IMG/VR virus record: IMGVR_UViG_3300034093_001023
Span: 1 to 37,014 of that record
Source: a virus
Length of the DNA stretch: 37,014 nucleotides
Strand: one strand, 5' to 3'
Within the stretch, counting starts at the first letter, position 1. Each line of letters opens with the position of its first letter. Of this stretch, positions 3,800-17,877 are shown piece after piece. The position numbers and the translations under genes are program-made. The notes below the pieces were generated by a model. It saw only the letters and a list, made by a program, of their open reading frames with translations. It searched no databases and was not told where the DNA came from.

Positions 3800-4107
3800 T
3801 ATGTTCCCAACCCGTAGTGTAATTTAGCCAATGTATTAGGATCAAGAGTAGCTGGATCTTTTTGACTCATCACTTCTCTCCATTTCTTATATGCTCGAGA
3901 ACCGTCTCCCTTAGCTTTAACTCGTTGCCCGCATTCGTTACAAGCATGGAATGCTGATACGAAGTCTTTTCCCTTATCAGTAACAAATACTTCAAAATCC
4001 TCAACAGTAAATTTATCAACGCACCCATTAAATGTGCATCTAACCTGCATAGTCTTAGGATCGATAAAACTAATATCTTCCTTCTTTTTTGCCATACGTT
4101 TAACCAT
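3799..4107 (-). CDS. small Cys/His protein, possible zinc ribbon
   Basis: 102 residues from MVKRMAKKKEDISF. I place the start at 4107 because it overlaps the queE stop as TAATG and GGGGA lies upstream; an ATG at 4119 is also in frame. Candidate metal ligands are C24 and C29 (CTFNGC) and H55, C57 and C60 (HACNECGQR), a CxxxxC...HxCxxC set that could hold one zinc ion. The C-terminus is PATLDPNTLAKLHYGLG. I recall similar phage hypotheticals. It could be a small nucleic-acid-binding or regulatory factor. It sits directly downstream of queE and is probably cotranscribed with it. Confidence 0.7.
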   Translation of the reverse strand: MVKRMAKKKEDISFIDPKTMQVRCTFNGCVDKFTVEDFEVFVTDKGKDFVSAFHACNECGQRVKAKGDGSRAYKKWREVMSQKDPATLDPNTLAKLHYGLGT

Positions 4108-4961
4108 TATGTTCCCCATTCATTTTTAAACAGTGGTACCTGCAGTCTATCACTGTATCGTAATCCCATCTTCATTGCTAGTTCAGCAACACGGCGATTA
4201 TTTAGTGTGTATACACTTTCAACACCGCCCACAGGCATGAGATAGCAATGTCCAGTGAATCCTTCTGCACGATATATATCTAAAGTTTCTAACGCTTCTT
4301 CGGCATCTTCTTCTGTGGCTATTACAAATTTAAGATAGGTATGCCCAGCTTCTTGATATTCACAAACAACATCCGGCTTTATGGCTTCGTGTCTAGCTTC
4401 GCCCGAACAACTGAGCTTGGCACTGACACTAAACGTAACCTCTCTATCCCACGCAGTAGCGGTCCACTCTCCTAGATAGTGTTTAAACTCTGGAGTTAGC
4501 TTTTGAGTACCGTTTGTTTCGAAAGTAATTTCTTTAAGACTACGCATACTTTCGTGCTCTAACAGGTCCGGATAAGCACGTTGCCAACCTAGCAAGGGCT
4601 CGCCACCTGTGATAACTAAGTGTTCTTCTTTCCAGTGATCCTGTGGAAGAATTTCCATAATGCGATCTGTAATTGCTTCACTAGTAAGCATTGGACTAAG
4701 ATTCTTAAAGTCAGGATGCCAGCTTGCATAACTATCACAACCTGTGCTAACTAGTGGCAGCTCTTTGTAATCCTTAAAAGGATGCATAGCATTCATAACT
4801 GCGATGTTGTCTGCTTCCGTACTTAGTTCACCACGTGGCATACCAAAGCCAGCACATTTAAAGTTACAACCAAATGTGCGTAGAAACACAGAAGGAACAC
4901 CCATATAGCGTCCTTCACCTTGTATGCTGTAGAACAGCTCTGCGATTTTAATTTTGCTCAT
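4107..4961 (-). CDS. queE: QueE-like radical SAM, 7-carboxy-7-deazaguanine synthase
   Basis: 284 residues. QueE converts 6-carboxytetrahydropterin to 7-carboxy-7-deazaguanine using SAM and a [4Fe-4S] cluster. Visible marks are SIQGEGRYMGVPSVFLRTFG (12-31), the first two cluster cysteines C32 and C36, TGGEPLLGW (118-126), and ETNG. The third cysteine is not two residues after C36 as in the usual CX3CX2C. The next candidate is C75 in STGCDSYASW, where CDSY resembles the typical CDTxYS, so about 36 residues appear inserted into the cluster loop (GMPRGELSTEADN region). It is preceded by a perfect sigma70 promoter that would make a leaderless mRNA. It partners with FolE, the QueD-like protein and the DpdA-like enzyme in this window. 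Confidence 0.85.
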   Translation of the reverse strand: MSKIKIAELFYSIQGEGRYMGVPSVFLRTFGCNFKCAGFGMPRGELSTEADNIAVMNAMHPFKDYKELPLVSTGCDSYASWHPDFKNLSPMLTSEAITDRIMEILPQDHWKEEHLVITGGEPLLGWQRAYPDLLEHESMRSLKEITFETNGTQKLTPEFKHYLGEWTATAWDREVTFSVSAKLSCSGEARHEAIKPDVVCEYQEAGHTYLKFVIATEEDAEEALETLDIYRAEGFTGHCYLMPVGGVESVYTLNNRRVAELAMKMGLRYSDRLQVPLFKNEWGT

Positions 4962-5139
4962 TGTTTATTATACCTTTATGTATGAAATTTGTCAAGTCCT
5001 CTTTGACCAGGCTCCACGAACCATCGTTGTTATCAATCCAATTTAAACAATCACCTTCTTTCCAACCAGCCTCGTCTAATAAATCCTGCGGCAACGATAG
5101 TATACCATCTTCTTCAACAGTCACGGTCCATGATTTCAT
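4948..5139 (-). CDS. AbrB/MazE-type swapped-hairpin DNA-binding protein
   Basis: 63 residues with the AbrB/SpoVT-like pattern of about 45 residues: WTVTVEEDGILSLPQDLLDEAGW (positions 4-26, with the typical LP..LL...GW) followed by KEGDCLNWIDNNDGSWSLV. These form two-strand swapped-hairpin dimers that bind DNA; family members are transition regulators or antitoxins. No toxin gene lies next to it, so a phage transcription regulator is more likely than an antitoxin. Its end overlaps the queE start by 14 bases and the queE promoter lies within it. The start overlaps the upstream stop as ATGA. Confidence 0.75.
   Translation of the reverse strand: MKSWTVTVEEDGILSLPQDLLDEAGWKEGDCLNWIDNNDGSWSLVKEDLTNFIHKGIINNEQN
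4967..4995 (-). promoter_or_regulatory. perfect sigma70 promoter TTGACA-N17-TATAAT for queE
   Basis: On the minus strand the -35 TTGACA is at 4995-4990 and the -10 TATAAT at 4972-4967, separated by exactly 17 bases. It lies inside the 3' end of the AbrB-like gene. Five bases separate the -10 from the queE ATG, so the expected start site (6-7 bases after the -10) falls on or next to the A of the ATG. Confidence 0.75.
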
Positions 5140-5354
5140 GTTGTATACCCCATGCTATCAGGATTTCTTTTACGTTCTTCATCTAGCCGCTCTTTGATCA
5201 TTTTCCTACATTCTACTCTAACCTGAGGAGGGATATCTGGATGAAAGTCTAAGTCTCTACAATTATAGTATCTGCCAGGCGGTTCACCCCAGTTGTTGAT
5301 GGCAATTAAAAAAACTGCTATAAACGCCGCAATGACTATTAAGATATTTTTCAT
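5136..5354 (-). CDS. small single-pass membrane or secreted protein
   Basis: 72 residues from MKNILIVIAAFIAVFLIAI, a hydrophobic segment at residues 3-20 that is either a signal anchor or an uncleaved signal peptide. The remainder is polar and would lie in the periplasm: YYNCRDLDFHPDIPPQVRVE, then CRKMIKERLDEERKR. Its two cysteines could form a disulphide. The start at 5354 is chosen because it overlaps the previous stop (ATGA); the ATG at 5381 would extend it by nine polar residues. I recall similar small proteins in cyanophages. Function unknown. Confidence 0.7.
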   Translation of the reverse strand: MKNILIVIAAFIAVFLIAINNWGEPPGRYYNCRDLDFHPDIPPQVRVECRKMIKERLDEERKRNPDSMGYTT

Positions 5355-5551
5355 ATATAGTCGCTGACTAATAGTTGGCATATGAGTCCTTGATGATCGT
5401 CGTCAAATACAAAATTCATATAGGTGTCTGTTAACTCTGTGGTGTATTTGTCCCCAGGTAATCCGAACCGTTCTATGATTGATACCGTGATTTCGTCCCA
5501 AACAGGAATACTACCTGCCTTGGGACTCCACGGTACATGCACAGTTACCAT
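5351..5551 (-). CDS. small conserved phage protein (66 aa)
   Basis: 66 residues, MVTVHVPWSPKAGS followed by WDEITVSIIERFGLPGDKYT and a C-terminal beta segment (YMNFVFDDDHQGLICQLLV). The mixed alpha/beta pattern resembles a small conserved cyanophage hypothetical protein. No catalytic motif is visible. It overlaps the HIT gene upstream by seven bases and the membrane protein downstream by four, so it is embedded in one operon. Function unknown. Confidence 0.7.
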   Translation of the reverse strand: MVTVHVPWSPKAGSIPVWDEITVSIIERFGLPGDKYTTELTDTYMNFVFDDDHQGLICQLLVSDYI

Positions 5552-5925
5552 TTTCTATAGTTGCCTCTTTCTGGAATAACATGTCGAACCCCGCCTGTGG
5601 GATCTTCCATGTCACCGTTGCGTCTGGGAATTAAATGAACATGCGGATAAGGTACAGTCTGTCCAGCTGCCTCTCCCCAATTTATTCCAATATTGAATCC
5701 GTCCCATTCACCACTGTTAACTTTTTCTTGACCAAGTCTAAGTGCGTCAGCAAAACAATCTTCAATAACGCCCACGGCTGAATATTTAGGTACGAACAAC
5801 AAATGTCCTTCTGTTACAGGATACTTATCTTTAAAAACAACCACGTGAAAGTCGTCTTGTACAACATCATTCCACGGTGCTTGTCCTGCATCACGTGCAT
5901 CATCTAATGAATAATGTAGATTCAT
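5545..5925 (-). CDS. HIT-family nucleotide hydrolase-like protein
   Basis: 126 residues. HIT proteins hydrolyse or transfer nucleotides at the alpha phosphate through a histidine triad. Here the core is GEAAGQTVPYPHVHLIPRR (84-102). It keeps the last two histidines (H95, H97, with H95 as the likely nucleophile), but the first triad position is Y93. The N-terminal strand KYPVTEGHLLFVPKYSA (34-50) is typical. The C-terminus GGVRHVIPERGNYRKW is like that of phage HIT proteins I remember. It lies among nucleotide-metabolism genes and may clean up nucleotidyl intermediates. The substrate is unknown. Confidence 0.85.
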   Translation of the reverse strand: MNLHYSLDDARDAGQAPWNDVVQDDFHVVVFKDKYPVTEGHLLFVPKYSAVGVIEDCFADALRLGQEKVNSGEWDGFNIGINWGEAAGQTVPYPHVHLIPRRNGDMEDPTGGVRHVIPERGNYRKW

Positions 5926-6149
5926 CGTTTGTATTCCTGTTTTTCTTTGGGAAGATCGTCTTCTCGAATAACAAACTCACGGCCGCCTAAACTGCCAACA
6001 AATGCTCGAGTACGTTCAGCGTAGGCCAATCGAAGTTTAATAGTTTGAAATGCCACTTCTAAAAATGCTTTGGGCTTGTAATTTAGTACATGCATATCAA
6101 AATCTTTGCCATTATCAGTACAATGCACTTTGATCTGTGTATCAATCAT
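5922..6149 (-). CDS. small conserved phage protein (75 aa)
   Basis: 75 residues from MIDTQIKVHCTDNGKDFDMH. The start at 6149 overlaps the upstream stop as ATGA and has GGTGG upstream; the frame also opens at 6170. Continues HVLNYKPKAFLEVAFQTIKL and ends in a charged tail (DDLPKEKQEYKR). No enzymatic motif. The position between the phosphoribosyltransferase and the HIT gene suggests coexpression with nucleotide genes only. Function unknown. Confidence 0.7.
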   Translation of the reverse strand: MIDTQIKVHCTDNGKDFDMHVLNYKPKAFLEVAFQTIKLRLAYAERTRAFVGSLGGREFVIREDDLPKEKQEYKR

Positions 6150-6685
6150 TTGGTCCACCAATCTTCCCAAGGAAAATCAATCCATACATCGTTTTCGGCT
6201 TTGTTAACTTCCATACCAACATAATCCATCTTAACATTGCACTTGCTGGCAAGATTATCTACCAACACAGCAAATTTAACGTTATTGTTCCATACTTCTT
6301 CCCAGGCTGGATCATCTGGAAAGCAACCACTTGGCCAATCCTGCATGATCCAATTAAGGGTGGTTCCTTGATCGTTGATATCGTCTACAATCAGAATGTT
6401 TTTAAAAGTGGTATCGTCATTAACAGTACGTTCCTTGGATAGCGGACCTAGTGCATCCTCAGCCATCCAAAGATTACTTTCAGGACCAACTTCTCCGTCA
6501 CGTAAACTAACATTTAATGTATGCAACGGAATATTAAAATATTGACTGATCATAACGGCAGGAATTAATCCGCCTCGAGTAATACCTACAATATAATCGG
6601 GCCGCCACGTTCCTGTAGCAAGCTCTCTACAAATCTTGCCGACTAACCCATTTACCTCATGCTGGTTGATTTTGAGTTTGTTCAT
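6146..6685 (-). CDS. phosphoribosyltransferase (type I PRT fold)
   Basis: 179 residues. The PRPP-binding loop is clear: NILIVDDINDQGTTLNWI (96-113), preceded by PDYIVGITRGGLIPAVMIS (29-47), the GITRGG turn typical of hypoxanthine/xanthine/guanine PRTs. Such enzymes join a purine base to PRPP to form a nucleotide and pyrophosphate. The substrate cannot be decided; a purine or a purine analogue is plausible, and a 7-deazapurine base cannot be excluded given the neighbours. The start at 6685 has AAGGA upstream and overlaps the cupin gene by 29 bases. Length is normal for the family. Confidence 0.85.
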   Translation of the reverse strand: MNKLKINQHEVNGLVGKICRELATGTWRPDYIVGITRGGLIPAVMISQYFNIPLHTLNVSLRDGEVGPESNLWMAEDALGPLSKERTVNDDTTFKNILIVDDINDQGTTLNWIMQDWPSGCFPDDPAWEEVWNNNVKFAVLVDNLASKCNVKMDYVGMEVNKAENDVWIDFPWEDWWTK

Positions 6686-7124
6686 TTCTATCCTTAAGAT
6701 ACTGTTCGTGTTGTATCCATTTGTTGTTGACTAAAAATCCCCATTCACGTTTATGGGGACCTGGCATAAACAGGGTCCAGGCAGTTATTCCAGGCCTAAG
6801 CTCTATACGATGATAGCTGTTAGACCCACAAATACGGAAGTGACCAGGACCACGCCAATGCTTAGTTTCTCCAACCATTTGGCCATCTTCAAAATTAGGA
6901 GTGTATTCATAGTAACCACCTTTTAATATCAGTGTAGCATACGGCCACGGATGATCGTGTACATCATCGGGATCACCCTTGAGAAATTTGTGTAAAAATA
7001 CGTTGAATGGAAAACGGTTTCTTTCTTTCAAGAATAGATAGAACCGTTCTAGATACGGTTCATTATTAACACGATCATAAATGATACGCTTACGGCCTAA
7101 TCGTTCAAGCAGTTTCAAAAACAT
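6657..7124 (-). CDS. cupin-fold protein
   Basis: 155 residues. The metal-binding cupin motif 1 is DDVHDHPWPYATLILKGGYY (52-71), with H55 and H57 as likely ligands and G68-G69 in the turn. Motif 2 is likely near SYHRIELRPGITAWTLF (102-118), with H104. The N-terminus YLERFYLFLKERNRFPFN resembles a phage cupin group I remember. Cupins range from dioxygenases to sugar isomerases, so the reaction is unknown. It lies between the MBD4-like glycosylase and the phosphoribosyltransferase and overlaps both, so a role in base or nucleotide chemistry is possible. Confidence 0.75.
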   Translation of the reverse strand: MFLKLLERLGRKRIIYDRVNNEPYLERFYLFLKERNRFPFNVFLHKFLKGDPDDVHDHPWPYATLILKGGYYEYTPNFEDGQMVGETKHWRGPGHFRICGSNSYHRIELRPGITAWTLFMPGPHKREWGFLVNNKWIQHEQYLKDRNEQTQNQPA

Positions 7125-7524
7125 TATTAACTTCTTCCTTGAGATATCTTATCAGTTCTTTATCCGTGGGCATCACACTATAATTGTTCTTGTAAAAAAT
7201 TTCATAGCTGTCGCTGCCGTATTTTCCAATGCCATATAACATTGTAGCATCATTTCCGTCCCAAGTCAAATAGTCTTGACTCATTCTAATCAATCGATTG
7301 TAACGAACGTTCAGCATTCCTAAGGGCTGGATTATGCTTTTGACAAACTCTTCTTCTGCGTGTAATAGTGCTAATGCTGTAGGAAACCAATATAGGAATT
7401 CGGGTAGTGTTGTCTTTACCGCTTTACGACCGGTTTGGTTAAGCATGATCACACCAACAAAGTGTTGCCAAGCATCATCGACTTGTTGTTGAACCATTAG
7501 ATCGTCACGTAGAGGTTTGATCAT
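7105..7524 (-). CDS. HhH-GPD DNA glycosylase, MBD4-like
   Basis: 139 residues from MIKPLRDD. The start at 7524 is chosen because it overlaps the upstream stop as ATGA with AAGG upstream. The whole protein follows the catalytic domain of vertebrate MBD4 as I remember it: FVGVIMLNQTGRKAV (22-36), IIQPLGMLNVRYNRLIRMSQ (64-83), the helix-hairpin-helix turn YGIGKYGSDSYEIF (97-110), and MPTDKELIRYL (118-128) with D121 at the catalytic Asp. There is no Fe-S cluster, as in MBD4. MBD4 removes T or U opposite G. The phage target may be deaminated bases, or an unusual base in its own or the host's DNA. Confidence 0.8.
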   Translation of the reverse strand: MIKPLRDDLMVQQQVDDAWQHFVGVIMLNQTGRKAVKTTLPEFLYWFPTALALLHAEEEFVKSIIQPLGMLNVRYNRLIRMSQDYLTWDGNDATMLYGIGKYGSDSYEIFYKNNYSVMPTDKELIRYLKEEVNNVFETA

Positions 7525-7739
7525 TCTACACCTTCGCCAAACCAATCATCAACTTGATGTTCTGCCTCTTCCTGTGTCATTGCGTGTACAAAAATACGAG
7601 CAGGCTCGCCTACAGTATGTTGAATATTAAATTTTACAACACCTGCAGGAATAAGCTCCCAATCTCGTTCTACAATAAACTCTTGTAGATTTTTAGCACG
7701 AAAGATTAAATTGTCTGTGAGATCTTTTGCAGTATTCAT
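7521..7739 (-). CDS. small hypothetical protein (72 aa)
   Basis: 72 residues: a helical N-terminus (MNTAKDLTDNLIFRAKNLQ), then a beta-rich stretch (WELIPAGVVKFNIQHTVG, ARIFVHAMTQEEAEHQVDDW) ending acidic. The fold may be a small alpha/beta domain. No catalytic motif is visible. It is translationally coupled by four-base overlaps to the DNA glycosylase downstream and to the 7736-8032 gene upstream. Function unknown. Coupling suggests the product is needed at levels similar to the glycosylase. Confidence 0.7.
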   Translation of the reverse strand: MNTAKDLTDNLIFRAKNLQEFIVERDWELIPAGVVKFNIQHTVGEPARIFVHAMTQEEAEHQVDDWFGEGVE

Positions 7740-8032
7740 TGTTGGCCTCGGACTATGTTCTTGTTCAACGCTTCGTCGTCACTGCGCAGTTGATCTTCCA
7801 TGTACAACATCAATTGATGTTTATACATATCTTCTGAAAGTCCATGCCAACCAATGCACTTGCCAGTAGGACTACGGCCGCAGCCGCAACGACCGATATC
7901 TTCTGTGTTTTCTTCAACTCTCACTTGCATGTCTTTATCCTTTTTACCAAATATTTTTTCAAAATTATTAGCGAATTCATCTTGACTTACGCTAAATGGT
8001 CTTGGTTTACTTCCTTTTCCACCGTCACTCAT
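7736..8032 (-). CDS. small protein with CDGSH-like metal motif
   Basis: 98 residues. Residues 1-33 (MSDGGKGSKPRPFSVSQDEF...) are polar and resemble short phage proteins. A Met at 35 could be an internal start of a second product. The C-terminal part holds RCGCGRSPTGKCIGWHGLSE (48-67): C-x-C-x2-S-x4-C-x-G-x-H. This is close to the CDGSH signature (C-x-C-x2-S-x3-P-x-C-D-G-S-H), which binds a [2Fe-2S] cluster with three Cys and one His. A zinc site is the alternative. It lies three bases downstream of folE with GAGG before the ATG. Function unknown. Confidence 0.7.
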   Translation of the reverse strand: MSDGGKGSKPRPFSVSQDEFANNFEKIFGKKDKDMQVRVEENTEDIGRCGCGRSPTGKCIGWHGLSEDMYKHQLMLYMEDQLRSDDEALNKNIVRGQQ

Positions 8033-8034
8033 AA

Positions 8035-8772
8035 TTACCTCGGCGCAAATTCTTGTTGTAGTTTGATGTTATCAAAGAACTCTTTCTTTGTATGCGGATC
8101 ATCTTTGAATGTTCCTTTTAACACTGTGGTCTGTGTTAGACTAGAGTGTGCCATAATGCCTCTATTCTCACAGCATCCATGGATAGCTTGAACATAAACA
8201 GCTACATTTTCGCTGTTTGTAGCTTTCATTATTTCTCGGGCAATGTCGTTGCAGAGTTCTTCCTGTAGTGTACCTCTACGGGCACACCACTGAGCGATCC
8301 TTGTGTACTTGCTTAACCCAATAAGTTTCTGTGCCGCAATAATTCCAATATAAGCCACCCCAGATACAGGCTGGTGATGATGACTACACATACTACGAAG
8401 CTCACTTCTAACCACCAACATACCTTCGTACCGATCTGTGCTGTCATTGGGGAATGCTGTTGCCTCTGGTGATGGTTCATATCTTCCTGCCATTATTTCG
8501 TTAAAATACATTTTAGCAAGACGACGAGCCGTGCCTTTCGAGTTAGGATCGTTTTCTCGATCAATCAGCAAGCGATCTAGCACAGTTTCAAATGCTGCTG
8601 CGGCTTCGTTGATGAGTTTTTCTTTATCGCCGTCGTGCAAGTAATCGGCAATGTTGTCACCTGCCCAGAAACGTTTGTTGTCACGTTTCATCTTAAAGCG
8701 AATAGCATCGCCTAGGTAACCTTCTTCATAGCCCTTGTCGTCTATGTTATTGTATGTTACTGATTCTGTCAA
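8035..8772 (-). CDS. folE: GTP cyclohydrolase I
   Basis: 245 residues. FolE opens GTP to 7,8-dihydroneopterin triphosphate, the first step to folate and to 7-deazaguanines. Zinc ligands are visible: C129 and H132 in MCSHHHQPVSG, and C200 in AIHGCCENRG. The core IGLSKYTRIAQWCARRGTLQ (151-170) matches the family (GLSKlaRivd.fArR.Q.QE). The extra N-terminus (about 60 residues) is charged. The start is TTG at 8772, supported by GGAG six bases upstream. It has its own sigma70-like promoter. With QueE, the QueD-like protein and the DpdA-like enzyme here, it probably feeds a DNA modification pathway rather than folate alone. Confidence 0.92.
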   Translation of the reverse strand: MTESVTYNNIDDKGYEEGYLGDAIRFKMKRDNKRFWAGDNIADYLHDGDKEKLINEAAAAFETVLDRLLIDRENDPNSKGTARRLAKMYFNEIMAGRYEPSPEATAFPNDSTDRYEGMLVVRSELRSMCSHHHQPVSGVAYIGIIAAQKLIGLSKYTRIAQWCARRGTLQEELCNDIAREIMKATNSENVAVYVQAIHGCCENRGIMAHSSLTQTTVLKGTFKDDPHTKKEFFDNIKLQQEFAPR

Positions 8773-8810
8773 TTTATTCTCCGAGTTAATGACGTGGATG
8801 TCTTTGTATT

Positions 8811-8839
8811 AGTATACAGGTTTATTTAGATTTTTGCAA
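8811..8839 (-). promoter_or_regulatory. sigma70-type promoter TTGCAA-N17-TATACT for folE
   Basis: Minus-strand -35 TTGCAA (8839-8834) and -10 TATACT (8816-8811) with a 17-base spacer, in the 85-base gap upstream of folE. The predicted start site near 8804 gives a leader of about 32 bases carrying the GGAG Shine-Dalgarno. The spacer contains CTAAATAA, slightly like a late box. Confidence 0.6.
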
Positions 8840-8857
8840 GTAGTTTAAGAAAATATT

Positions 8858-9481
8858 TCATTTTATTGTCAATGCTGCTTCTCTACCTCCAAAATTTCCT
8901 CTAACAAACATATTAAATGCAACAGAAATTCTATCATCCTTAGAATTGTTTATTTCTACTGAATGCATTACATTTGAAGGAAATATGATTATATGATTTT
9001 CAGTTGGAGTAATAGACCATGTACTACTATTAAAAATATTTTGTTCTGAAAATTCTAAACTAATTGTGGGAGAAGCAAACCCTAAATATGTTTGATATTT
9101 GTGAAGTGTAAACTGTCCTGTCTCTTCTGCTGCCGTCTTTAGATATAACACTCCCGAAAACAACGAATTGACATGTCTATGTGCATGTGCAGAGCCACCT
9201 GGCAAAAATTTAACAGCCCATGAAGTTGTTATATAAAATTCTGTCTCGGGTTTGATTTTTAAAAGATTATATGCATAATCATCGAATGCGTTGAGAACTT
9301 TATTTCTAATTTCTAAACATTTAGGATCATCTAATAATGTAACATTTTCAGTGATAAATCCTTTGGTATCAGACATTGAGTTGAACTCTAAGTTTGAAAT
9401 GTAGTCAACACTTTTAGAAGAGATTGGATCTACCTCAGATGTGTAAATAGGAACACCAAATAAAGAAGCTGCTGCCGGCAT
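8858..9481 (-). CDS. 2-oxoglutarate/Fe(II)-dependent oxygenase
   Basis: 207 residues of the phage 2OG-Fe(II) oxygenase type (as I remember, TIGR02466-like). Candidate iron ligands are in HAHRHVNSLFSGVLYL (99-114, H101/H103) and H173 in FPSNVMHSVEIN, with R184 in DDRISVAFNMF positioned for 2-oxoglutarate. The N-terminal LFGVPIYTSEV is typical of the family. These enzymes hydroxylate amino acids, bases or small molecules. The target here is unknown; hydroxylation of a modified base is possible in this neighbourhood. Codon use is somewhat more AT-rich than its neighbours. The Shine-Dalgarno (GAGAG) is weak and nine bases away. Confidence 0.8.
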   Translation of the reverse strand: MPAAASLFGVPIYTSEVDPISSKSVDYISNLEFNSMSDTKGFITENVTLLDDPKCLEIRNKVLNAFDDYAYNLLKIKPETEFYITTSWAVKFLPGGSAHAHRHVNSLFSGVLYLKTAAEETGQFTLHKYQTYLGFASPTISLEFSEQNIFNSSTWSITPTENHIIIFPSNVMHSVEINNSKDDRISVAFNMFVRGNFGGREAALTIK

Positions 9482-9501
9482 AGGGTATAATCTCTCTATA
9501 G

Positions 9502-10599
9502 TTATGTTAACATCTTTAATAGTTCGTTACAACTAAAAAAGTTTTCTTTTAATGCATCTACCTGTTTATTCAGGATTGGTAGACGTGTTTTATAATTGGC
9601 CATGTGTTCTATAATTAAACGACACAGATCTGGACGATATACAGTGTATGCATCAAAACTTTCAGTCCATCGGCTAGGATACTTAAAGGTATCAAATGCC
9701 ATTTCACTGTAGCTGAGTCTATCTGGTACTAATGGTATCGCATCAACAATAGCGCCTTCGTACCAACTGATGCCCAGTGTTTCTTGTAGGTTGGCGCTAA
9801 ACACCATCTTTGCTTCGCCTAGCAAATTATGATATTCGTTCTTAGTTAGTTGTTGGTCTTGACATACTACGAATTCATATTGTGGTAAGTGTTCTTTTAA
9901 GTCACGGAATATTTCAACCTGTTTCTCGGGAGCGATACGATGCGGGAACAAGATAAGATCACGTTTGGGCATGTTCTTATACATTAGCAATGTATCTGGC
10001 ATATACTCCATGGGCCACCCTGTGCGTACAACCTTGTTATTGAATACAGTATCATCTAAGACAGTCTTATACATTGTTTGTCTACGATCCGGATCTGCTT
10101 GGATCAAGTTTTCGTAAAACATATGAATATGAAAGTCTGTAGCAAAGTAGTTGTGATCAAATGCGTGATAGAAACTCTTCTCAGCATTTCTAACCCAAGG
10201 CTTATCTCCCACAAGCCGTCCTAAGAAGTCTTGTGGGTCATAACTGCCAGCATGCCATAGGCCATGGGTAGTTACTGGTATACCTAGTAACTCACTCATG
10301 TATTTTAGATTAATGATACCTGGATGCCAAGCATCAGTAAACACAAAATGATCGCCGGGATTAACGGATCCGTTACAAAATAACCGACCCATCTGCTCCA
10401 CTTGACTAGCCTTGTATATATTAGTGCCGCCAAAGTTGAGAAATGCTCCAGGAGTGGTAGCACTAGGAATGTCCGTAGGACCTGATATAATGTTGACATT
10501 GTGTCCTGCCTTTTTAAGCAATGCCGGCACATGAGTTTTCCACTGACCTGTATATCTAGTCTCTACCGCTTCAAGATCAATAAGGAAAACTCGTGCCAT
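9502..10599 (-). CDS. GT-B glycosyltransferase
   Basis: 365 residues. The C-terminal Rossmann domain shows the features of nucleotide-sugar glycosyltransferases: RDLILFPHRIAPEKQVEIFR (223-242), then VFSANLQETLGISWYEGAIV (272-291), where the E7-type ETLGISWYEG contacts the donor, followed by PLVPDRLSY. The N-terminal half (IDLEAVETRYTGQWKTHVPA, then TDAWHPGIINLKYMSELLG) is highly conserved in marine T4-like phages as I remember. The acceptor is unknown: DNA bases, virion proteins or host surface glycan. Its position between folE and the QueD-like gene makes a modified DNA base one candidate. No signal peptide is seen, so it is cytoplasmic. Confidence 0.8.
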   Translation of the reverse strand: MARVFLIDLEAVETRYTGQWKTHVPALLKKAGHNVNIISGPTDIPSATTPGAFLNFGGTNIYKASQVEQMGRLFCNGSVNPGDHFVFTDAWHPGIINLKYMSELLGIPVTTHGLWHAGSYDPQDFLGRLVGDKPWVRNAEKSFYHAFDHNYFATDFHIHMFYENLIQADPDRRQTMYKTVLDDTVFNNKVVRTGWPMEYMPDTLLMYKNMPKRDLILFPHRIAPEKQVEIFRDLKEHLPQYEFVVCQDQQLTKNEYHNLLGEAKMVFSANLQETLGISWYEGAIVDAIPLVPDRLSYSEMAFDTFKYPSRWTESFDAYTVYRPDLCRLIIEHMANYKTRLPILNKQVDALKENFFSCNELLKMLT

Positions 10600-10602
10600 T
10601 CT

Positions 10603-10827
10603 TTAACCTCTCTTTTGAAAGTTTGGTCTGTTGCCTTGATATGGACGTCTTGGCCGCTTGCTGGCAAGATACGATCCATAGTTTTGACTATCTCTGCGAT
10701 AGAGATCTGCTGGATTAAAATCGCAGAGTTGAATTCTGCACCAATCGTGGTAGGCCTCGAGGTCTTCCCACACCTTTACAACGTCAGGACGATTTTCAAA
10801 GTACCTGTAGTCCTTGTAGTTTTTCAT
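10603..10827 (-). CDS. small conserved basic phage protein
   Basis: 74 residues: MKNYKDYRYFENRPDVVKVW with an aromatic-rich N-terminus, then DWCRIQLCDFNPADLYRRDS and an Arg/Gly/Pro-rich disordered tail (RPRRPYQGNRPNFQKRG). The tail is suited to nucleic-acid or protein binding. Similar proteins are conserved next to the glycosyltransferase in T4-like marine phages in my memory. The Shine-Dalgarno AAAGGAA lies upstream of the ATG. No enzymatic motif. Function unknown. Confidence 0.75.
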   Translation of the reverse strand: MKNYKDYRYFENRPDVVKVWEDLEAYHDWCRIQLCDFNPADLYRRDSQNYGSYLASKRPRRPYQGNRPNFQKRG

Positions 10828-10838
10828 CTGTATTCCTT

Positions 10839-11234
10839 TTAGTATTTGATGAATGAACCATTTTCTCCGTCTTCGGAGACCTCAATCCAAACCTCACGGC
10901 CTGGATACTTTTGTGAAATAGTGTCGTATAATTCGTCCGACATCATTTCGCAACTTTTATGATCTAGCGACAAAACACCTTGTGCGCTATGATACAGTTG
11001 TTCAAGCCACCGCTTGAACTGTATGAATTCCACATCTCTATCATTGTGGGTGACACTAAGCCATACCCTAAAATGGAAAATATGACGATGAGGATTAGCA
11101 AGAAACGATACATCATATTGATCTCCTGTTGCTAGGTTAGGGTCTGTTGCGGCCGCAGGATAGCAGTGAATGCCTTCCTTTTGAAATGTGACCCAAATCA
11201 TTTTAAGCGGTCGTTGGTCTTGTCTAATGATCAT
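10839..11234 (-). CDS. QueD/PTPS-like T-fold protein
   Basis: 131 residues. I infer a 6-pyruvoyl/6-carboxytetrahydropterin synthase relative from pattern. HRHIFHFRVWLSV (49-61) sits where QueD has HGH followed by a strand. EFIQFKRWLEQL (69-80) matches the DFxxLK helix, LSLDHKSCEMM (88-98) the LDHxxL segment, and YPGREVWIEVSEDGENG (110-126) the last strand with its pterin-binding Glu (E121). QueD makes 6-carboxytetrahydropterin from the FolE product, the substrate of QueE. Zinc ligands could be H23, H49 and H51, but the spacing is unusual, so activity is uncertain. The start overlaps the upstream stop (ATGA). Confidence 0.55.
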   Translation of the reverse strand: MIIRQDQRPLKMIWVTFQKEGIHCYPAAATDPNLATGDQYDVSFLANPHRHIFHFRVWLSVTHNDRDVEFIQFKRWLEQLYHSAQGVLSLDHKSCEMMSDELYDTISQKYPGREVWIEVSEDGENGSFIKY

Positions 11235-11611
11235 CGCAGTTGTTCCATGGTAATGATTTTACTTAATGCGTCGCCGAGATCTTTGTCGTCGGTGACTACG
11301 TGTAGACTGTGTCGATTCTCATCGCTCTTACGGTCATACTTGGTAGTTTCGATAATAGTACCACCACTGGCACCATATACACTTAATCTGAATCCTTGAG
11401 AATGCAAGTCCGGACCATCGCTGTCTTCAGGAGCATAGCACTCATTGGGTTGACTATCGTTCATCAACCAGTTGCGAATTCTTTGTTTAATGGTTAGTTT
11501 CATAGGTCTTTCTTCTAGGTATGGTCTTGCACGTTTTATTTTATTGGCACCGGTAATTCTAGGAATGCGTCTTTGACTAGCTGTCGATGCTACTGCGTAT
11601 CCACCACTCAT
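11231..11611 (-). CDS. conserved phage protein, AbrB-independent regulator or unknown
   Basis: 126 residues if started at the ATGA overlap at 11611. The conserved part seems to begin at the internal Met at 11503 (MKLTIKQRIRNWLMNDSQ), so a 90-residue product is possible. The body contains GFRLSVYGASGGTIIETTKY (71-90) and ends DDKDLGDALSKIITMEQLR, a beta-sheet followed by a helix. I recall this as a conserved hypothetical protein of T4-like cyanophages. The basic N-terminal extension (RRIPRITGANKIKRAR) would be unusual. It lies between the QueD-like gene and an unknown gene upstream of the DpdA-like enzyme. No catalytic residues are evident. Confidence 0.65.
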   Translation of the reverse strand: MSGGYAVASTASQRRIPRITGANKIKRARPYLEERPMKLTIKQRIRNWLMNDSQPNECYAPEDSDGPDLHSQGFRLSVYGASGGTIIETTKYDRKSDENRHSLHVVTDDKDLGDALSKIITMEQLR

Positions 11612-12141
11612 TTGATAATCTCATCTTTGCCATATTGATCCCAATTAGTGAAGCGATCTCTTCCTAATAGATCCTGTAGGTTATGACACCACACCCCAGG
11701 ATTGCTTGCGTTAAAGTCTTTGTCATCTATCTTCAATGTAGCATTGTAACCTAGTTGATTAATGTAAGGTAATTTTACACTGATCTGCGGAATAAATCTA
11801 CGCTTTTCGGTAAGGCCGCTTTCGAGTAATCCTTCTGCTTCGCTGACATCAAAGTCTAGTGTACACCAGAATTCGTGTTCGCTATCTAAACATACATAGA
11901 TCATATTTTCCCACGGACGCCACGTTGCAGCATCATTGACGCCTAGAGTTTTAAAACTTTGATTAGCACCAAAATAGATATGCTCACATTCGTACTTGCT
12001 AGCCAGTTCCATGATGGTATATGGATCGTGTACACCTACGACAAACAATGTTTTCATTCCGTAGGCAGGAGTACGTTCAATTTCAATTCCTACAAAGAAA
12101 GTAATAGATTCTTTGACGCCTTCGGTGTATGTTCTTTTCAT
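11608..12141 (-). CDS. unknown protein in the deazaguanine gene block
   Basis: 177 residues, not assigned to a family. It begins MKRTYTEGVKESITFFVGIE and includes GMKTLFVVGVHDPYTIMELA (28-47), a strand-turn-helix like a Rossmann or TIM-barrel unit. Then come YFGANQSFKTLG, CTLDFDVSEAEGLLESGL and a C-terminal half with FIPQISVKLPYINQLG, DDKDFNASNPGVWCHNLQDL. The mixed alpha/beta layout and conserved-looking GANQSF and NPGVWCH motifs suggest an enzyme or a partner protein. It lies two genes from the DpdA-like gene and next to the QueD-like block, overlapping both neighbours by four bases, so a role in that pathway is worth testing. Confidence 0.7.
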   Translation of the reverse strand: MKRTYTEGVKESITFFVGIEIERTPAYGMKTLFVVGVHDPYTIMELASKYECEHIYFGANQSFKTLGVNDAATWRPWENMIYVCLDSEHEFWCTLDFDVSEAEGLLESGLTEKRRFIPQISVKLPYINQLGYNATLKIDDKDFNASNPGVWCHNLQDLLGRDRFTNWDQYGKDEIIK

Positions 12142-12365
12142 AGTTCCAATCCGTTTCTTCTTGCTTCTTGTTCTGCCTGTGCTTCTTGCATCACTGCGTT
12201 GTGCTTGTGTTTAAGTATAACAATATCGTCCTTTAAACGCAACCTCTGTTTCTTCATTTCGTCTATTTTTAGGTCATCATAGATGCCAGTTTTCTCCATA
12301 CTGTCTATCTGTTTGTCCAAAACTCTGTGAGCTTCTTCTAGATGCTTGATTTTATTTTGATACAT
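12138..12365 (-). CDS. YdcH/DUF465-like helical hairpin protein
   Basis: 75 residues. The first two thirds match the DUF465 (YdcH) pattern: HLEEAHRVLDKQIDSMEKTG (8-27), then DDLKIDEMKKQRLRLKDDI (30-48), two antiparallel helices linked by a short turn. The C-terminal helix is Gln/Glu-rich. Bacterial members are small soluble proteins of unknown function; in marine phages they are common. An excellent Shine-Dalgarno (AAGGAG) precedes the ATG. It follows the DpdA-like gene by nine bases and is in the same operon. Confidence 0.75.
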   Translation of the reverse strand: MYQNKIKHLEEAHRVLDKQIDSMEKTGIYDDLKIDEMKKQRLRLKDDIVILKHKHNAVMQEAQAEQEARRNGLEL

Positions 12366-12374
12366 GTTAACTCC

Positions 12375-13985
12375 TTATTCTACAACCAAACTGTTCAACT
12401 CGTCATCGTCTGGATTGGCAAAATCAATTTCGCCTGCTTTCTTACCATCATCGAAATCAAATAAGTTACCAAATGTATTAGCAGCAGGACCACCTTGTAA
12501 GCGTGAACCTTCTAGTGATTTCAAGAACTGCGCACCAGTTTCAATCATATCAAACGCTTCTGCTTTGGTTTTAGTATTGAATAGTTCTTCAACAAACGTA
12601 CCAAAGTAAAGAATCTTATTCGGAACCCAATCGCTGAATTCAATTTCTTTCTTGCCTTCAATGCTCTTCATACGCCAGTCCGGAGTGAATCTAGTACATT
12701 CGATATCCATCAACTGTTGAGCACGTTGCACGGCCTTGATATGGCATTCTACATTATGCCCCATCATTAGTGCGTAGCTGAAACTATCCCAACTAGTCTT
12801 GTTTGGAATCTTGCCTAGTTTGTTAAGTCTCGGAACTTCCTGATAGTGTTCTGGATTCAAGTGATTAAACTTGACATCGCCGAGTTCAGCATCTGTCTTG
12901 CGAACACCGTAGTTGTAATATGCAATATCGCCCATGGTCAAACGACTTCCAAACTCACTTTCAAACGGAAACGGAATATCAAAACGTCCTGAAAGTGCTT
13001 TATTGTCCGGAGCCTTGTCCATGATAACACTCCAACGCTTGTTGGTGTGCTGTGCATTTGTGTATACAAGTCCGTGAGCAGTAGCAATGAACGGGCTTGC
13101 ACAGTCGAAGCTGATTGTAAGTTCTGGATTGATATGCTTACGGATTTGACGTTGAATCTGTGTTAGATAACAACTCCAGTCTAATTGTGCTGTACCCAAG
13201 AAGTGAATCCAGTTCTTACCTGTAAGCATGCCTTCGTCACGCATGGTCATTAGACGTTTGAGTGTGATGTCCATCTTACACATATTAGCGCCACCGAACG
13301 CCCATCCTTCTGCTTCTTTTCCTGCAAATGGTCCTTTAGGATCGCTAAACTCTACAACACCACGATACCACTTTTCCGCTGTGTCCCAATCACCGCCTTG
13401 CAGTACGTTAAGCCACTTGGTAGCTCCCAAGCGATTATCTAGAAAGTACTTGTTATTATAACGAGTCTTTTCTAAACAGTCTTCGAATGTTTTTAACCCA
13501 GTCTTTGGACTGTGGATATGGTCACATGCCCACGTAGGCACGTCTAACATCATACTCCAATCGGCAGTTGCTTCTAGCCATTCGAGAATCTTTTGACGTG
13601 TCTTAGTAGCTTCTACACCTTCGAAGTTCAACCAATCAAATTTAAGAACACCTTTACCGATCTGGTAACCACCAGAGTCACCTAAGATCATTGTGTTACC
13701 ACGATCACGCTGTTGTATCATTGATTCCTGATCTTGTGCTTTGATAACATCAAGTTGAGCGTGGCCTGCTGAATACAGAGCATACTTATAGGTAAAGTAT
13801 CCTTGATCTGGATTAAGAAAATTCATTCCTTCAATTCCTTGATCAAACCCTGCAGGAATACGATCCTTTGATACAAACTCTTCTAATCGCTGTTTTGCAA
13901 CATAAGTGGAATAGAAAGAACTAATCGCTGGCAGATATACTGCATAGTCCTTTTGCAATGGTGTTAGATTAACTGGTGGTTTCAT
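12375..13985 (-). CDS. dpdA: TGT-superfamily transglycosylase, DpdA-like
   Basis: 536 residues. tRNA-guanine transglycosylases and the DNA-acting DpdA enzymes exchange guanine for a 7-deazaguanine base. TGT marks appear in order: ILGDSGGYQIG (100-110) for the DSGGFQ base-binding Asp (D103), MMLDVPTWACD (145-155), LNVLQGGDW (192-200) for the QG segment, GWAFGGANM (227-235) for GYAVGGLAVGE, FLGTAQ (262-267), and ISFDCASP (291-298), where D294 is the nucleophile position of MFDCVxPTR. The zinc-binding C-terminal domain of tRNA enzymes (CxCxxC) is not visible. The C-terminus is acidic. With FolE, QueD-like and QueE here, a DNA-modifying role is more likely than tRNA. Overlaps the upstream gene by 17 bases. 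Confidence 0.8.
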   Translation of the reverse strand: MKPPVNLTPLQKDYAVYLPAISSFYSTYVAKQRLEEFVSKDRIPAGFDQGIEGMNFLNPDQGYFTYKYALYSAGHAQLDVIKAQDQESMIQQRDRGNTMILGDSGGYQIGKGVLKFDWLNFEGVEATKTRQKILEWLEATADWSMMLDVPTWACDHIHSPKTGLKTFEDCLEKTRYNNKYFLDNRLGATKWLNVLQGGDWDTAEKWYRGVVEFSDPKGPFAGKEAEGWAFGGANMCKMDITLKRLMTMRDEGMLTGKNWIHFLGTAQLDWSCYLTQIQRQIRKHINPELTISFDCASPFIATAHGLVYTNAQHTNKRWSVIMDKAPDNKALSGRFDIPFPFESEFGSRLTMGDIAYYNYGVRKTDAELGDVKFNHLNPEHYQEVPRLNKLGKIPNKTSWDSFSYALMMGHNVECHIKAVQRAQQLMDIECTRFTPDWRMKSIEGKKEIEFSDWVPNKILYFGTFVEELFNTKTKAEAFDMIETGAQFLKSLEGSRLQGGPAANTFGNLFDFDDGKKAGEIDFANPDDDELNSLVVE

Positions 13986-15133: not shown

Positions 15134-17803
15134 TTACTCAAAGTCAAAAAGTTTTGCGAATGTATTGTCCGACCTTGTTGAACTGATGTCCCATTCTAGA
15201 ACACCAATAAGGTTTCCTAATTTTTCATCTATGACTGTGGTCTCCATTTCTGCATCATTGAAAGGCAGATCTTTGAACCACTGTGGCAATCTCAGTTCAT
15301 CTACAGGATAGGCTACGGAAGTATGTCCCATGGGGTTGTCTTTGATCTTGCACACAATTACTTTCATGCCATCCACAATCTGCATGGAGTATTTGTCATC
15401 CATCATACGCTTGAGAGTGTTCCAATTCAATGAAGCTCTGACATGTCCGGGCATGTTGGTCTTACCAGCTTTCTTTTCCTTACTGGCATACTCAGTGATG
15501 TTATTGGCACGTTTGGGTGAACCCTTCTCCCAACCTGGTCGAGTTTTAAACTCTGTGCGGAAATCAGTAATATATTGCAGTATCTCTTCTTTGGTCACAC
15601 CAGTTAGTGTTTTAGTTAGTACTTCACTCAAGAAGTCTTGTATAACAACCGGGGTATCTGAACGCTTGAGGTCAAGTCCCATGGCTTTGATCTTGCCTGG
15701 CTTGCCTTCTGTGTCTGCTCGTTTACCTTCTTTGTCGTAGTAGAGCACTGCATATCGCTTTTTGGTGATGAACAATCCTTTGCTTGCAACAATTTCGCGA
15801 CCTGCTTTGATGACCTCAGCTCTGGTTCTAGGGACATGAAATGCTTCCTGCATGAATTTAACAAATGTGCCATTCACCGTTTCTCCTATGGTATCATAAA
15901 GTTCAACCACTGATTCTCTATTCCAGGGAATCAGCCCTTTCTCAATGTCTTTTTTCAGGGTAGCATACGCTGAAAAATAACAAGAGTCTGTGTCACCGTA
16001 TATGACCGCTCGACCGATGTGGTCATACTCTCCGGTAATAATTTCATTAACTTTAGATGCCATGTGTTTGGCAATTTGTCGTCCAGTTAGTGTGGTACTC
16101 TGACCAATCCTGTTATCAAAGAATCTACAGCCTGGATTTAAAATCGCACCATAGAGACTGTTTAACAGAATCTTCTTGACCAACTGTCGCTTGTCCCAGT
16201 ATTCTTCTTCAATCTTGTTACCAGCTTGGATACATTCTTTGAGCTTGGCCTGCATTTCTTTACGTTCTTTGTACCAACGAGCCAACAGTCCCGATATCAC
16301 TCCTTCAGTTTCATAAGTGAATATGGTACCGTTGGCACTAATCATCCAGGGCTGGTTGCTGTCGAATATAAGATCATAAGCCTGTGCCGCACTTAATGTA
16401 TCAGAACCACCACCTTCCCAGTCAATATTAACTTCTCTACCTACTTCTCGATTCATTACTGCGGAATACTCAAGACTACCAAATATACCTTCCCATGCTG
16501 ACGCAAATGATTTTCCTTTGGCCATTTCTGCAGCAATATAGTCTTTGGTTCCATCCTGTCGTAACTGGCCAACGATGGTTTCGGGGCCCATATTCAAAGC
16601 CCGAATAGCACTAGGATAGAGACTATTAATGTCAAGAGAGCCAATCCATTCATGTATACCTTTCTTTGGATATGCAACGTAAGCACCAGCAGCCTGTGTG
16701 TCTCCGTGCTCTTCCATCTTTTTGCGATTAGGAACTATCATACCTCTGCGATGAGCTTCGTTAATAATAGCTTGTTCGGTTACTGCTACTGCGCCCATGG
16801 TGGTTGCTAACAGCACTGTGTTTTCGTGTGCAATTGTATTAGCCAAGTCGATGAATTTTAATTTTCTATCAAGTTTCTCAAGAAGCATACAGTCATTGAT
16901 GTTGTATTCGATGAATGTTTTGAAGTCATTGTTGTACAATTGATCCAACGTGCCTTCATATTGTGTTTTACGCTCACCTAATTCGTATTCAGCAATTGCA
17001 TCCAATCGATATGTATGGCGTTCTTCATAGGTATACTTGCGATATAACTCAAGACTGTCTATATGAACACGCCCATGGAAGTCATAGGTAGTAGCAGTTT
17101 TGCCAAACTTTTCATATTCACGTTTCTTAGGAAAACAATTCCACAGACAAAATCGTCTTGTATCTTCTTTGCTGAGAACTTTGGTAACACGGTTAACGGT
17201 GTATGGAATATCAAAGCCCTCTGAATTCCAGCCACTTAGCACATCCGACTCTTGTATTAGATCCAAGAAAGTATTCAACATGTCTGCTTCGTTATCAAAC
17301 AGCATTGTATTGGGAAATTCTTCAACCTGACGTTTAGCCTCTTCCATACTCAACGTCTTAGGAGGAATAGCCAAACATACCATAGTCTGCATCCATTGAA
17401 GATACACAGCAATGGCAGTGATTGGCATAAACGGATCATCAGGTGATGCATAGCCACGTTCTGGATCGAAGTCAACCTCAATGTCGAAGAATGCTACATT
17501 TAGCTTAGGAGCATCTTGATTGAGATAATGATCTTCTAGGCATCGATAGATAGGATTGATGTCTGACTCGTAGAGTCGTTTGTTTGAATGAATAGCAAGT
17601 TCTTTGCGATGTTCTTTGACATTCTTTGAACTAACTCTGCTTAGTGGTTCGCCCTTGATGGATTGGAACTTGCCTTTGGGGTCGTTGTAATAGAATATGT
17701 GCCTGGCAGGGTAATCTTTGAAATGCCTCTGCCCTTTGTCGTCACGCTCAACGACAAGTATCTTGTCATCGTCGCGATTATAGTATGCGTCTACGAAACT
17801 CAT
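15134..17803 (-). CDS. 43: DNA polymerase, family B (T4 gp43-like)
   Basis: 889 residues from MSFVDAYYNR; AGGAG five bases before the ATG at 17803 decides the start over 17833. The 3'-5' exonuclease motifs are AFFDIEVDFD (Exo I, about 104-113), SGWNSEGFDIPY (Exo II, 190-201) and YNINDCMLL (Exo III, 300-308). The polymerase motifs are SLDINSLYPSAI (A, 389-400), KILLNSLYG (B, 544-552) and YGDTDS (C, 602-607) with both catalytic Asp. The C-terminus TFAKLFDFE resembles the clamp-binding tail of T4/RB69 gp43. All catalytic residues are present. Length matches T4 (898). A hairpin like the T4 gp43 autogenous operator lies just upstream. Confidence 0.97.
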   Translation of the reverse strand: MSFVDAYYNRDDDKILVVERDDKGQRHFKDYPARHIFYYNDPKGKFQSIKGEPLSRVSSKNVKEHRKELAIHSNKRLYESDINPIYRCLEDHYLNQDAPKLNVAFFDIEVDFDPERGYASPDDPFMPITAIAVYLQWMQTMVCLAIPPKTLSMEEAKRQVEEFPNTMLFDNEADMLNTFLDLIQESDVLSGWNSEGFDIPYTVNRVTKVLSKEDTRRFCLWNCFPKKREYEKFGKTATTYDFHGRVHIDSLELYRKYTYEERHTYRLDAIAEYELGERKTQYEGTLDQLYNNDFKTFIEYNINDCMLLEKLDRKLKFIDLANTIAHENTVLLATTMGAVAVTEQAIINEAHRRGMIVPNRKKMEEHGDTQAAGAYVAYPKKGIHEWIGSLDINSLYPSAIRALNMGPETIVGQLRQDGTKDYIAAEMAKGKSFASAWEGIFGSLEYSAVMNREVGREVNIDWEGGGSDTLSAAQAYDLIFDSNQPWMISANGTIFTYETEGVISGLLARWYKERKEMQAKLKECIQAGNKIEEEYWDKRQLVKKILLNSLYGAILNPGCRFFDNRIGQSTTLTGRQIAKHMASKVNEIITGEYDHIGRAVIYGDTDSCYFSAYATLKKDIEKGLIPWNRESVVELYDTIGETVNGTFVKFMQEAFHVPRTRAEVIKAGREIVASKGLFITKKRYAVLYYDKEGKRADTEGKPGKIKAMGLDLKRSDTPVVIQDFLSEVLTKTLTGVTKEEILQYITDFRTEFKTRPGWEKGSPKRANNITEYASKEKKAGKTNMPGHVRASLNWNTLKRMMDDKYSMQIVDGMKVIVCKIKDNPMGHTSVAYPVDELRLPQWFKDLPFNDAEMETTVIDEKLGNLIGVLEWDISSTRSDNTFAKLFDFE

Positions 17804-17808
17804 TTTTT

Positions 17809-17832
17809 CTCCTATGCAATTTTGGGCTTGCA
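17809..17832 (-). promoter_or_regulatory. candidate translational operator hairpin of DNA polymerase
   Basis: Minus-strand RNA would form TGCAA / TTGCA (5-bp perfect stem, 17828-17832 with 17815-17819) closing an 8-base loop GCCCAAAA. One base later comes the AGGAG Shine-Dalgarno (17813-17809) of gp43. T4 gp43 represses its own translation by binding a hairpin of this same geometry, a 5-bp stem and 8-base loop next to the Shine-Dalgarno. The loop sequence differs from T4. Confidence 0.6.
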
Positions 17833-17877
17833 AATACCAATTGTGCGGTTTATGGCCCGCCTACCTTCTTACTTTAT

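Follow-up and report, generated by a model that had tools for sequence, protein, structure and literature searches.

A viral gene cluster predicted to place a 7-deazaguanine in phage DNA combines a divergent transglycosylase, an altered QueD paralog and a glycosyltransferase

The closest described systems are the deazaguanine pathways of other phages: DpdA2 was found by HHpred beside the preQ0 genes of nt-1 (Hutinet 2019, PMC6884629), and dPreQ1 has been reported from a vibrio phage with this pathway (PMC12028318). Phage Bipper lacks queC, and 7-carboxy-7-deazaguanine (CDG) was considered a possible base there (Hutinet 2019, PMC6884629). The present analysis concerns a gene cluster in a linear viral record, IMGVR_UViG_3300034093_001023, a genome fragment of 37,014 nucleotides (the window). 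Deazaguanine DNA made without QueC has precedent; dCDG and dDG are both reportedly found in phages in the work of Cui from 2023, which is also said to predict a CDG decarboxylase, DpdL.

Sequence comparison and a structure model indicate that the cluster unites genes for FolE, QueE, a transglycosylase of predicted tRNA-guanine transglycosylase (TGT) fold, an altered QueD paralog and a GT4-like glycosyltransferase, and that these genes are conserved together. We propose, with a probability of about 0.6 for the explanation as a whole, that they form a phage operon that swaps guanine in the phage's own DNA for a 7-deazaguanine; that this DNA contains a deazaguanine of some kind is very probable. 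All genes of the cluster lie on the minus strand, and the core is as follows.

4107-4961, minus strand: QueE, 7-carboxy-7-deazaguanine synthase (phrog_2076, E 1.5e-53; C32, C36 and C75 invariant in 8/8)
8035-8772, minus strand: FolE, GTP cyclohydrolase I (PF01227, E 4.9e-40)
9502-10599, minus strand: GT4-like glycosyltransferase, 365 residues (ETLGISWYE, with E273 and E281; X1 homolog matches PF00534, E 8e-12)
10839-11234, minus strand: QueD paralog, T-fold by alignment, 131 residues (phrog_17812, a family of unknown function)
12375-13985, minus strand: predicted divergent TGT/DpdA-type guanine transglycosylase, 536 residues (motifs with D103, D148, Q196, H261 and D294)

A sequence-only reading had proposed a 7-deazaguanine pathway for phage DNA from four genes on one strand within 10 kb, and that arrangement, the gene coordinates and the pathway itself are well supported; the transglycosylase is closest to DpdA2 among the profiles tested and has no zinc motif. 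Its FolE is borne out, with C129, H132 and C200 at the residue numbers given (PF01227 at 137.3 bits, cut-off 27), and so are its QueE-like radical SAM protein and its TGT-superfamily protein, whose D103 lies in DSGGYQ and D294 in ISFDCASPF. The fourth protein, counted there as a QueD, proved to be something else (below). The radical SAM cysteines were compared across eight phage QueEs. In the window protein about 38 extra residues separate the second cluster Cys from the third, and five of the eight share such an insertion; the window QueE also matches the solved QueE 6nhl (phmmer E 9.7e-8). NCBIfam models match both FolE and QueE below their cut-offs.

The grouping is not due to chance, because co-occurrence among loci long enough to be scored is near complete. 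Of 582 relatives of the transglycosylase detected among viral contigs, the counts use the best 80, which are the closest and not the spread of the 582, all chosen for carrying this gene. In one of the 80 (L005), all 21 of the window genes that it contains encode identical proteins (100%), and it probably represents the same virus. A locus is long enough for a given gene if its contig runs on downstream for more than 500 bases beyond 1.5 times the distance. By this rule the T-fold gene follows the transglycosylase in 48/48 loci, the glycosyltransferase is present in 37/37 and FolE in 32 of 33; QueE was detected in 32 of the 80 contigs, none of them long enough to score it.

The 536-residue protein is most probably a divergent DpdA-type DNA guanine transglycosylase, on the strength of its motifs, profile comparison and predicted fold. 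It carries DSGGYQ (D103), MLDVP (D148), QGG (Q196), HFLG (H261) and ISFDCASPF (D294); D103 and D294 are invariant in all eight proteins aligned, and the motifs are present in 27/27 rows of the family alignment. Sequence searches of Pfam, NCBIfam and PDB left the protein unidentified, and it was placed by profile and fold comparison. The closest profile tested was one of six DpdA2 proteins (from X1, ACP17, BUCT-ZZ01, Moby, pf16 and KVP40), matched with a probability of 94.1 (E 1.3e-7); the alignment pairs D103 with the Asp of DSGG and D294 with that of S-x-D, and the motif order D-S-G-G-x-Q / D-x-P / Q-G / H-x-L-G / S-x-D is common to both families. Three control comparisons with or between unrelated profiles gave E 0.21, 0.35 and 0.41, and the single sequence of E. 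coli TGT gave E 0.0014 (probability 17). With an E value of at most 0.001 Foldseek gave only three matches, all chains of two mouse QTRT1 entries (E 3.2e-6); the 50 rows listed by VIA-align were all TGTs (best Z 19.5, 300 residues aligned, root-mean-square deviation 4.7 Å). The zinc motif CxCxxC of tRNA TGT, which the E. coli enzyme carries at 302, is absent from 27/27 relatives of the transglycosylase and from 6/6 DpdA2 proteins. A search with PF01702 gave no match in 18 records, those with DpdA2 included.

The DpdA2 profile does not detect the transglycosylase, which is probably, by sequence, a family separate from DpdA2. DpdA3, said to come from the 2023 work of Cui, and DpdA4 are reportedly further families of this kind, and the window protein could be a DpdA3. 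Members of its family are present in 17 phage records, in four of which the match is limited to a 34% stretch at 23% identity, and the gene is labelled hypothetical protein in 16 of these, the seventeenth having no annotation. Searches of viral contigs found no relatives of the transglycosylases of Vibrio phage 2.275.O and PA5oct, and two relatives of that of Phosso.

The T-fold protein does not have the active site of a QueD; by sequence it is a QueD paralog. Canonical phage QueDs have the catalytic C38 ahead of HGH/HGY and an Asp-His pair, each invariant in 9/9; in the paralogs Leu replaces the catalytic Cys in 11/11, and H23, H49, H51, E96 and E121 are invariant in the same eleven. In a joint alignment of five paralogs and six QueDs, the paralogs lack the segment that holds the Asp-His of QueD; H49 and E121 fall on invariant QueD residues and H51 on the QueD H/Y, while H23 does not line up with the first zinc His of QueD. 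Two of the 11 paralogs (window and ACP17) have an Asp-His adjoining an SCE motif, which the alignment does not pair with that of QueD. PF01242 does not match the window protein at E 0.01, and in PDB the paralog profile reaches the PTPS homolog 2dj6 at E 0.31 only, ranked under another, unrelated match. Seven of 13 records have a PTPS-family gene at another place, the six misses being contigs of 68-139 kb; for the protein of one relative (G002) the best NCBIfam model is QueD, at 55.7 bits (cut-off 89.25). The paralog family is found in 27 phage records, and at least six of twelve paralog-carrying genomes (PA5oct, Phosso, ACP17, BUCT-ZZ01, phiST and RHph_I1_18, the six searched for it) also have a PTPS/QueD gene. 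The invariant residues resemble a retained metal- and base-binding site, which suggests that the paralog is an enzyme; we lean slightly towards CDG as its substrate, and the paralog is the best candidate for a phage-specific step after CDG in the absence of QueC.

The distribution of QueC suggests a similar role. The test set comprised 12 of the 27 paralog records (PA5oct, Phosso, ACP17, X1, RHph_I1_18, phiST, Bakedbeans, Ahp1, D479, BUCT-ZZ01, MA9V-3 and Roos), the other 15 being ten PA5oct-group, a second ACP17 and four Cellulophaga records; PF06508 (QueC) found no match in 10 of the 12. X1 has a 16.2-bit match, under the cut-off of 22, which by eye looks like NAD synthase and was set aside. 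All four comparison genomes without the paralog encode QueC or Gat-QueC (172.1, 170.9, 183.3 and 32.6 bits; 2.275.O has the first and Moby the last of these scores); absence of the paralog was established by profile for 2.275.O and PhiXhv-12, and for KVP40 and Moby by their absence from the 27-record search result. Over 13 records PF06508 was strong in Vibrio 2.275.O alone (172.1 bits), which was also the only one of the 13 with QueF. The pattern suggests, at the level of gene content, that the paralog tends to replace QueC and acts on CDG at QueC's place, with D479 a doubtful exception. Ten of the twelve paralog genomes fit the view that the window's pathway lacks QueC; a fragment cannot itself reveal it, and three relatives (G001, G002 and G005) encode QueC-superfamily proteins. 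The relatives give a mixed answer; QueC is probably, but not provably, absent from this virus, and a QueC-less pathway yielding CDG or a phage-specific product is plausible.

The glycosyltransferase belongs to the deazaguanine module, to judge from its gene neighbourhoods. Its profile matches 14 of 24 records: all eight IMG/VR relatives, one of them truncated where its contig stops, and the six named phages PA5oct, Phosso, ACP17, X1, BUCT-ZZ01 and PhiXhv-12. The gene touches the transglycosylase or T-fold gene in the first five; tblastn also finds it in further PA5oct-type and Xanthomonas/Erwinia records, and the ACP17 protein found one record among viral contigs, at 100% identity. The EX7E motif (273-281) is present in the window protein and in four of six aligned relatives, and missing from those of BUCT-ZZ01 and PhiXhv-12 (24-25% identical); the window protein itself has no PF00534 match at E 0.01. 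Among the 12 paralog genomes, the glycosyltransferase occurs in 5/5 that match either transglycosylase profile and in 0/7 that match neither, so that the sugar would be added as the last step in one branch. We give even odds to a sugar on the inserted base. Among the papers listed by literature searches (deazaguanine sugar in phage DNA; PA5oct and ACP17), judged mostly without full texts, there was no report of one, and the excerpts consulted of PMC12707154, PMC13390438 and PMC12904381 make no mention of sugar on deazaguanine.

In the Xanthomonas phage PhiXhv-12 the glycosyltransferase relative is one gene, a PIG-L deacetylase, away from a Gat-QueC (168.2 bits) that is annotated as glutamine-fructose-6-phosphate aminotransferase; the three together (PV764601.1 120910-124144; L121:4669-7903) suggest, from their predicted functions, an amino-sugar on deazaguanine. 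The Synechococcus phage BUCT-ZZ01 has a second GT4-like protein on the other side of DpdA2 (L115:5653-6996; PF13692 at 24.6 bits, cut-off 27), and the Stenotrophomonas phage Moby an annotated inositol-3-phosphate synthase between FolE and QueC-DpdA2-QueE (L116:2660-8074).

In the proposed route, FolE, a QueD encoded elsewhere and QueE would make CDG. The QueD paralog would then take the place of QueC, most likely by stripping the carboxylate from CDG to give 7-deazaguanine, although we rate decarboxylation itself at somewhat less than an even chance. The transglycosylase would exchange guanine in finished phage DNA for 7-deazaguanine, the guanine set free could be salvaged by a phosphoribosyltransferase, the glycosyltransferase would put a sugar on the inserted base, and the modified base would mask guanine-containing sites from host nucleases. 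The complete sequence of events, in which a repurposed QueD decarboxylates CDG, a new DpdA family inserts 7-deazaguanine and a GT4-type enzyme adds the sugar, is offered tentatively. Position 7 would be a nucleophilic pyrrole carbon once the carboxylate is gone, so the sugar link could even be a C-glycoside. The sugar step would be new; were the T-fold protein the DpdL that Cui is said to have predicted in 2023, the decarboxylation would already have been foreseen. The system adds a divergent transglycosylase family to phage deazaguanine modification, offers a candidate enzyme for a QueC-independent branch and hints at a sugar-decorated purine in phage DNA, and the modified base might aid phage resistance to DNA-targeting defences. 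Because the module or a sister module is present in the isolated phages PA5oct, ACP17, X1, Phosso and BUCT-ZZ01, it is accessible to experiment.

Several observations count against this proposal. A Pfam search at E 0.01 found no family for the transglycosylase, and its sole NCBIfam match is unrelated (E 0.24); its model, built from 27 sequences, has a mean predicted local distance difference test score (pLDDT) of 71, and its Foldseek TM-scores to TGT do not exceed 0.38 by query and 0.53 by target. There is no match between its profile and the DpdA of 9g (E 0.46), the DpdA2 profile fails to find it in genomes, and neither transglycosylase profile matches in 7 of the 12 paralog-carrying named genomes, which may use another DpdA family. 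The profile link between paralog and QueD is weak (E 5.8e-4, probability 29, over 40 columns; control E 0.26), and the window's own paralog does carry an Asp-His pair. D479, which has the paralog, shows a partial PF06508 match of 32.8 bits, over the cut-off and by score indistinguishable from the annotated QueC of Moby, because the Moby match is itself only 32.6 bits; the P-loop of the D479 protein reads SGIDS, as against SGGxDS in QueC. The QueC-superfamily proteins of G001, G002 and G005 also belong here, and if plain 7-deazaguanine is made, the usual handle for a sugar is lost.

The alternative that survives best, though we think it unlikely, is that CDG itself is inserted, as dCDG, the paralog being an accessory or binding protein; the dCDG reportedly seen in phages by Cui in 2023 stands beside this view. 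CDG is the end point of the pathway without QueC, and it was already considered as the base of Bipper, which lacks queC (PMC6884629), whereas the invariant H23, H49, H51, E96 and E121 of the paralog suggest an enzyme.

A little less likely still is completion of the pathway by a host QueC, with preQ0 or a known derivative as the base and the paralog as a second, degenerate QueD. QueC is common in cells, 11 of 14 cellular control genomes scoring over its cut-off, and the phages examined have the paralog close to FolE or QueE; yet a protein that lacks the QueD Cys in every member aligned is kept in every long-enough locus, mostly tracks with a missing phage QueC, and in at least half of the twelve genomes coexists with a PTPS/QueD gene.

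We find it improbable that the virus has its own QueC elsewhere, of the type seen in G001, G002 or G005, and makes a preQ0-based product. PF06508 does match in all three (16.6 bits in G001, or 24.8 with its neighbours; 16.2 in G002; 27.8, 25.4 and 23.9 in G005), a zinc-type Cys motif is present, and even the annotated phage QueC of Moby reaches merely 36.8 bits with NCBIfam QueC. With that model, however, the three score 16.2, 12.7 and 28.7 bits, far under the cut-off of 150.3 (KVP40 173.2, 2.275.O 161.9, 9g 150.1), and TilS outscores QueC for the G001 and G002 proteins. The QueC motif is C(x)8CxxCxxC (PMC13329287); the Cys spacing is 20 in G001 and G002 and 7 in G005, as against 9, 9 and 7 in the annotated phage QueCs of KVP40, 2.275.O and Moby. 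A distance of at least about 70 kb also separates the candidate genes from the cluster, and no QueC match occurs in PA5oct, ACP17 or Phosso, which carry both paralog and glycosyltransferase. By sequence the three are probably other members of the QueC superfamily, G005 least surely. Within a few kb G005 encodes several ATP-pyrophosphatase-like proteins with an SGG loop that by eye resemble asparagine synthase or QueC (L086, L089 and L090); the QueC-like gene of G002 overlaps one that by eye resembles a SPASM-type radical SAM protein (L088:1093-3049), which hints at a separate biosynthetic pair.

Action of the transglycosylase on tRNA, by which the phage would merely boost host queuosine, fits the TGT fold and the tRNA TGTs that are its closest solved structures, and is nevertheless very improbable given the missing zinc motif, the proximity to a phage DpdA2 profile, a DNA polymerase gene nearby and the DpdA2 that fills the same slot in related operons.

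The remaining genes considered are the following.

6146-6685, minus strand: phosphoribosyltransferase (PF00156, E 1.3e-14; nearest NCBIfam model xanthine phosphoribosyltransferase, below its cut-off)
8858-9481, minus strand: 2-oxoglutarate (2OG)-Fe(II) oxygenase, accessory, outside the core (PF13759, E 3.5e-19)
11231-11611, minus strand: small open reading frame of 126 residues between the T-fold gene and 11608-12141, less conserved
11608-12141, minus strand: conserved 177-residue protein without an assignable fold, occurring with the glycosyltransferase in named phages
15134-17833, minus strand: family B DNA polymerase, replication context (PF00136, E 5.1e-35; phrog_262, E 2.8e-200)

The polymerase near the cluster counts for a DNA role of the 7-deazaguanine operon. 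The phosphoribosyltransferase, kept in 25 of 27 long-enough loci and with a homolog adjoining QueE in PA5oct, is a possible salvage enzyme for released guanine. Three genes had been named as candidates for further steps: the glycosyltransferase and the 11608-12141 gene (64/66) are indeed conserved, and the 2OG oxygenase is rejected as a core step, being present in only 2 of 35 loci. The open reading frame at 11231-11611 is found in 45 of 55. Homologs of the 11608-12141 protein occur in 13 records in all, at about 45% identity in PA5oct-like phages and about 30% in ACP17. Its predicted model (pLDDT 80) gave no convincing fold match in PDB (best E 0.12); the best VIA-align Z was 6.4, to SpoIIAA-type proteins, and its best viral match was its own ACP17 homolog. 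A cysteine-dioxygenase-like protein (6657-7124, phrog_4786) is also encoded in the window and is kept in 26 of 29 long-enough loci.

Among named phages the PA5oct group of Pseudomonas is like the window in its transglycosylase (43%), glycosyltransferase (41%), QueD paralog (54%) and homolog of the 11608-12141 protein (45%). In PA5oct the transglycosylase, glycosyltransferase and T-fold genes follow one another directly, and QueE comes a few genes later; unlike in the window, FolE, the PTPS/QueD gene and the 11608-12141 homolog of this group are far from the operon. Phosso has the T-fold gene adjoining the glycosyltransferase with FolE and QueE near, the transglycosylase being far away. The Acidovorax phage ACP17 (QueD, one small gene, FolE, the 11608-12141 homolog, DpdA2, glycosyltransferase, T-fold gene, QueE) and the Xanthomonas phage X1 (FolE, three genes, glycosyltransferase, DpdA2, T-fold gene, QueE) share with the window the closeness of FolE, QueE, paralog and glycosyltransferase, and ACP17 also the 11608-12141 homolog; they differ in having a DpdA2-family transglycosylase. 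The order in BUCT-ZZ01 is QueE, XGPRT, a small gene, QueD, FolE, the second glycosyltransferase-like protein, DpdA2, T-fold gene and glycosyltransferase. That two transglycosylase families occupy the same operon slot is the strongest argument as to function.

Other systems share less. In Vibrio 2.275.O the transglycosylase occurs with FolE, QueC and QueF, and neither paralog nor glycosyltransferase is present. The Cellulophaga phiST type has QueD, QueE, FolE and the same QueD paralog and gives no QueC match, and the bases of such phages are reportedly dCDG and dDG in the 2023 work of Cui; unlike the window, this type has no glycosyltransferase of this family and no match to the two transglycosylase profiles. 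In T4 the base of glucosyl-hydroxymethylcytosine is changed and then glycosylated in DNA; that system, different in base and insertion route, is alike only if the sugar step proposed here is right. The DpdA2 phages KVP40 and Moby differ from the window in having QueC and in lacking both the paralog and a glycosyltransferase of this family, whereas phage DpdA2 systems of the Vibrio nt-1/KVP40 type share with it FolE, QueE and a TGT-family enzyme free of the zinc motif, with the same order of catalytic motifs.

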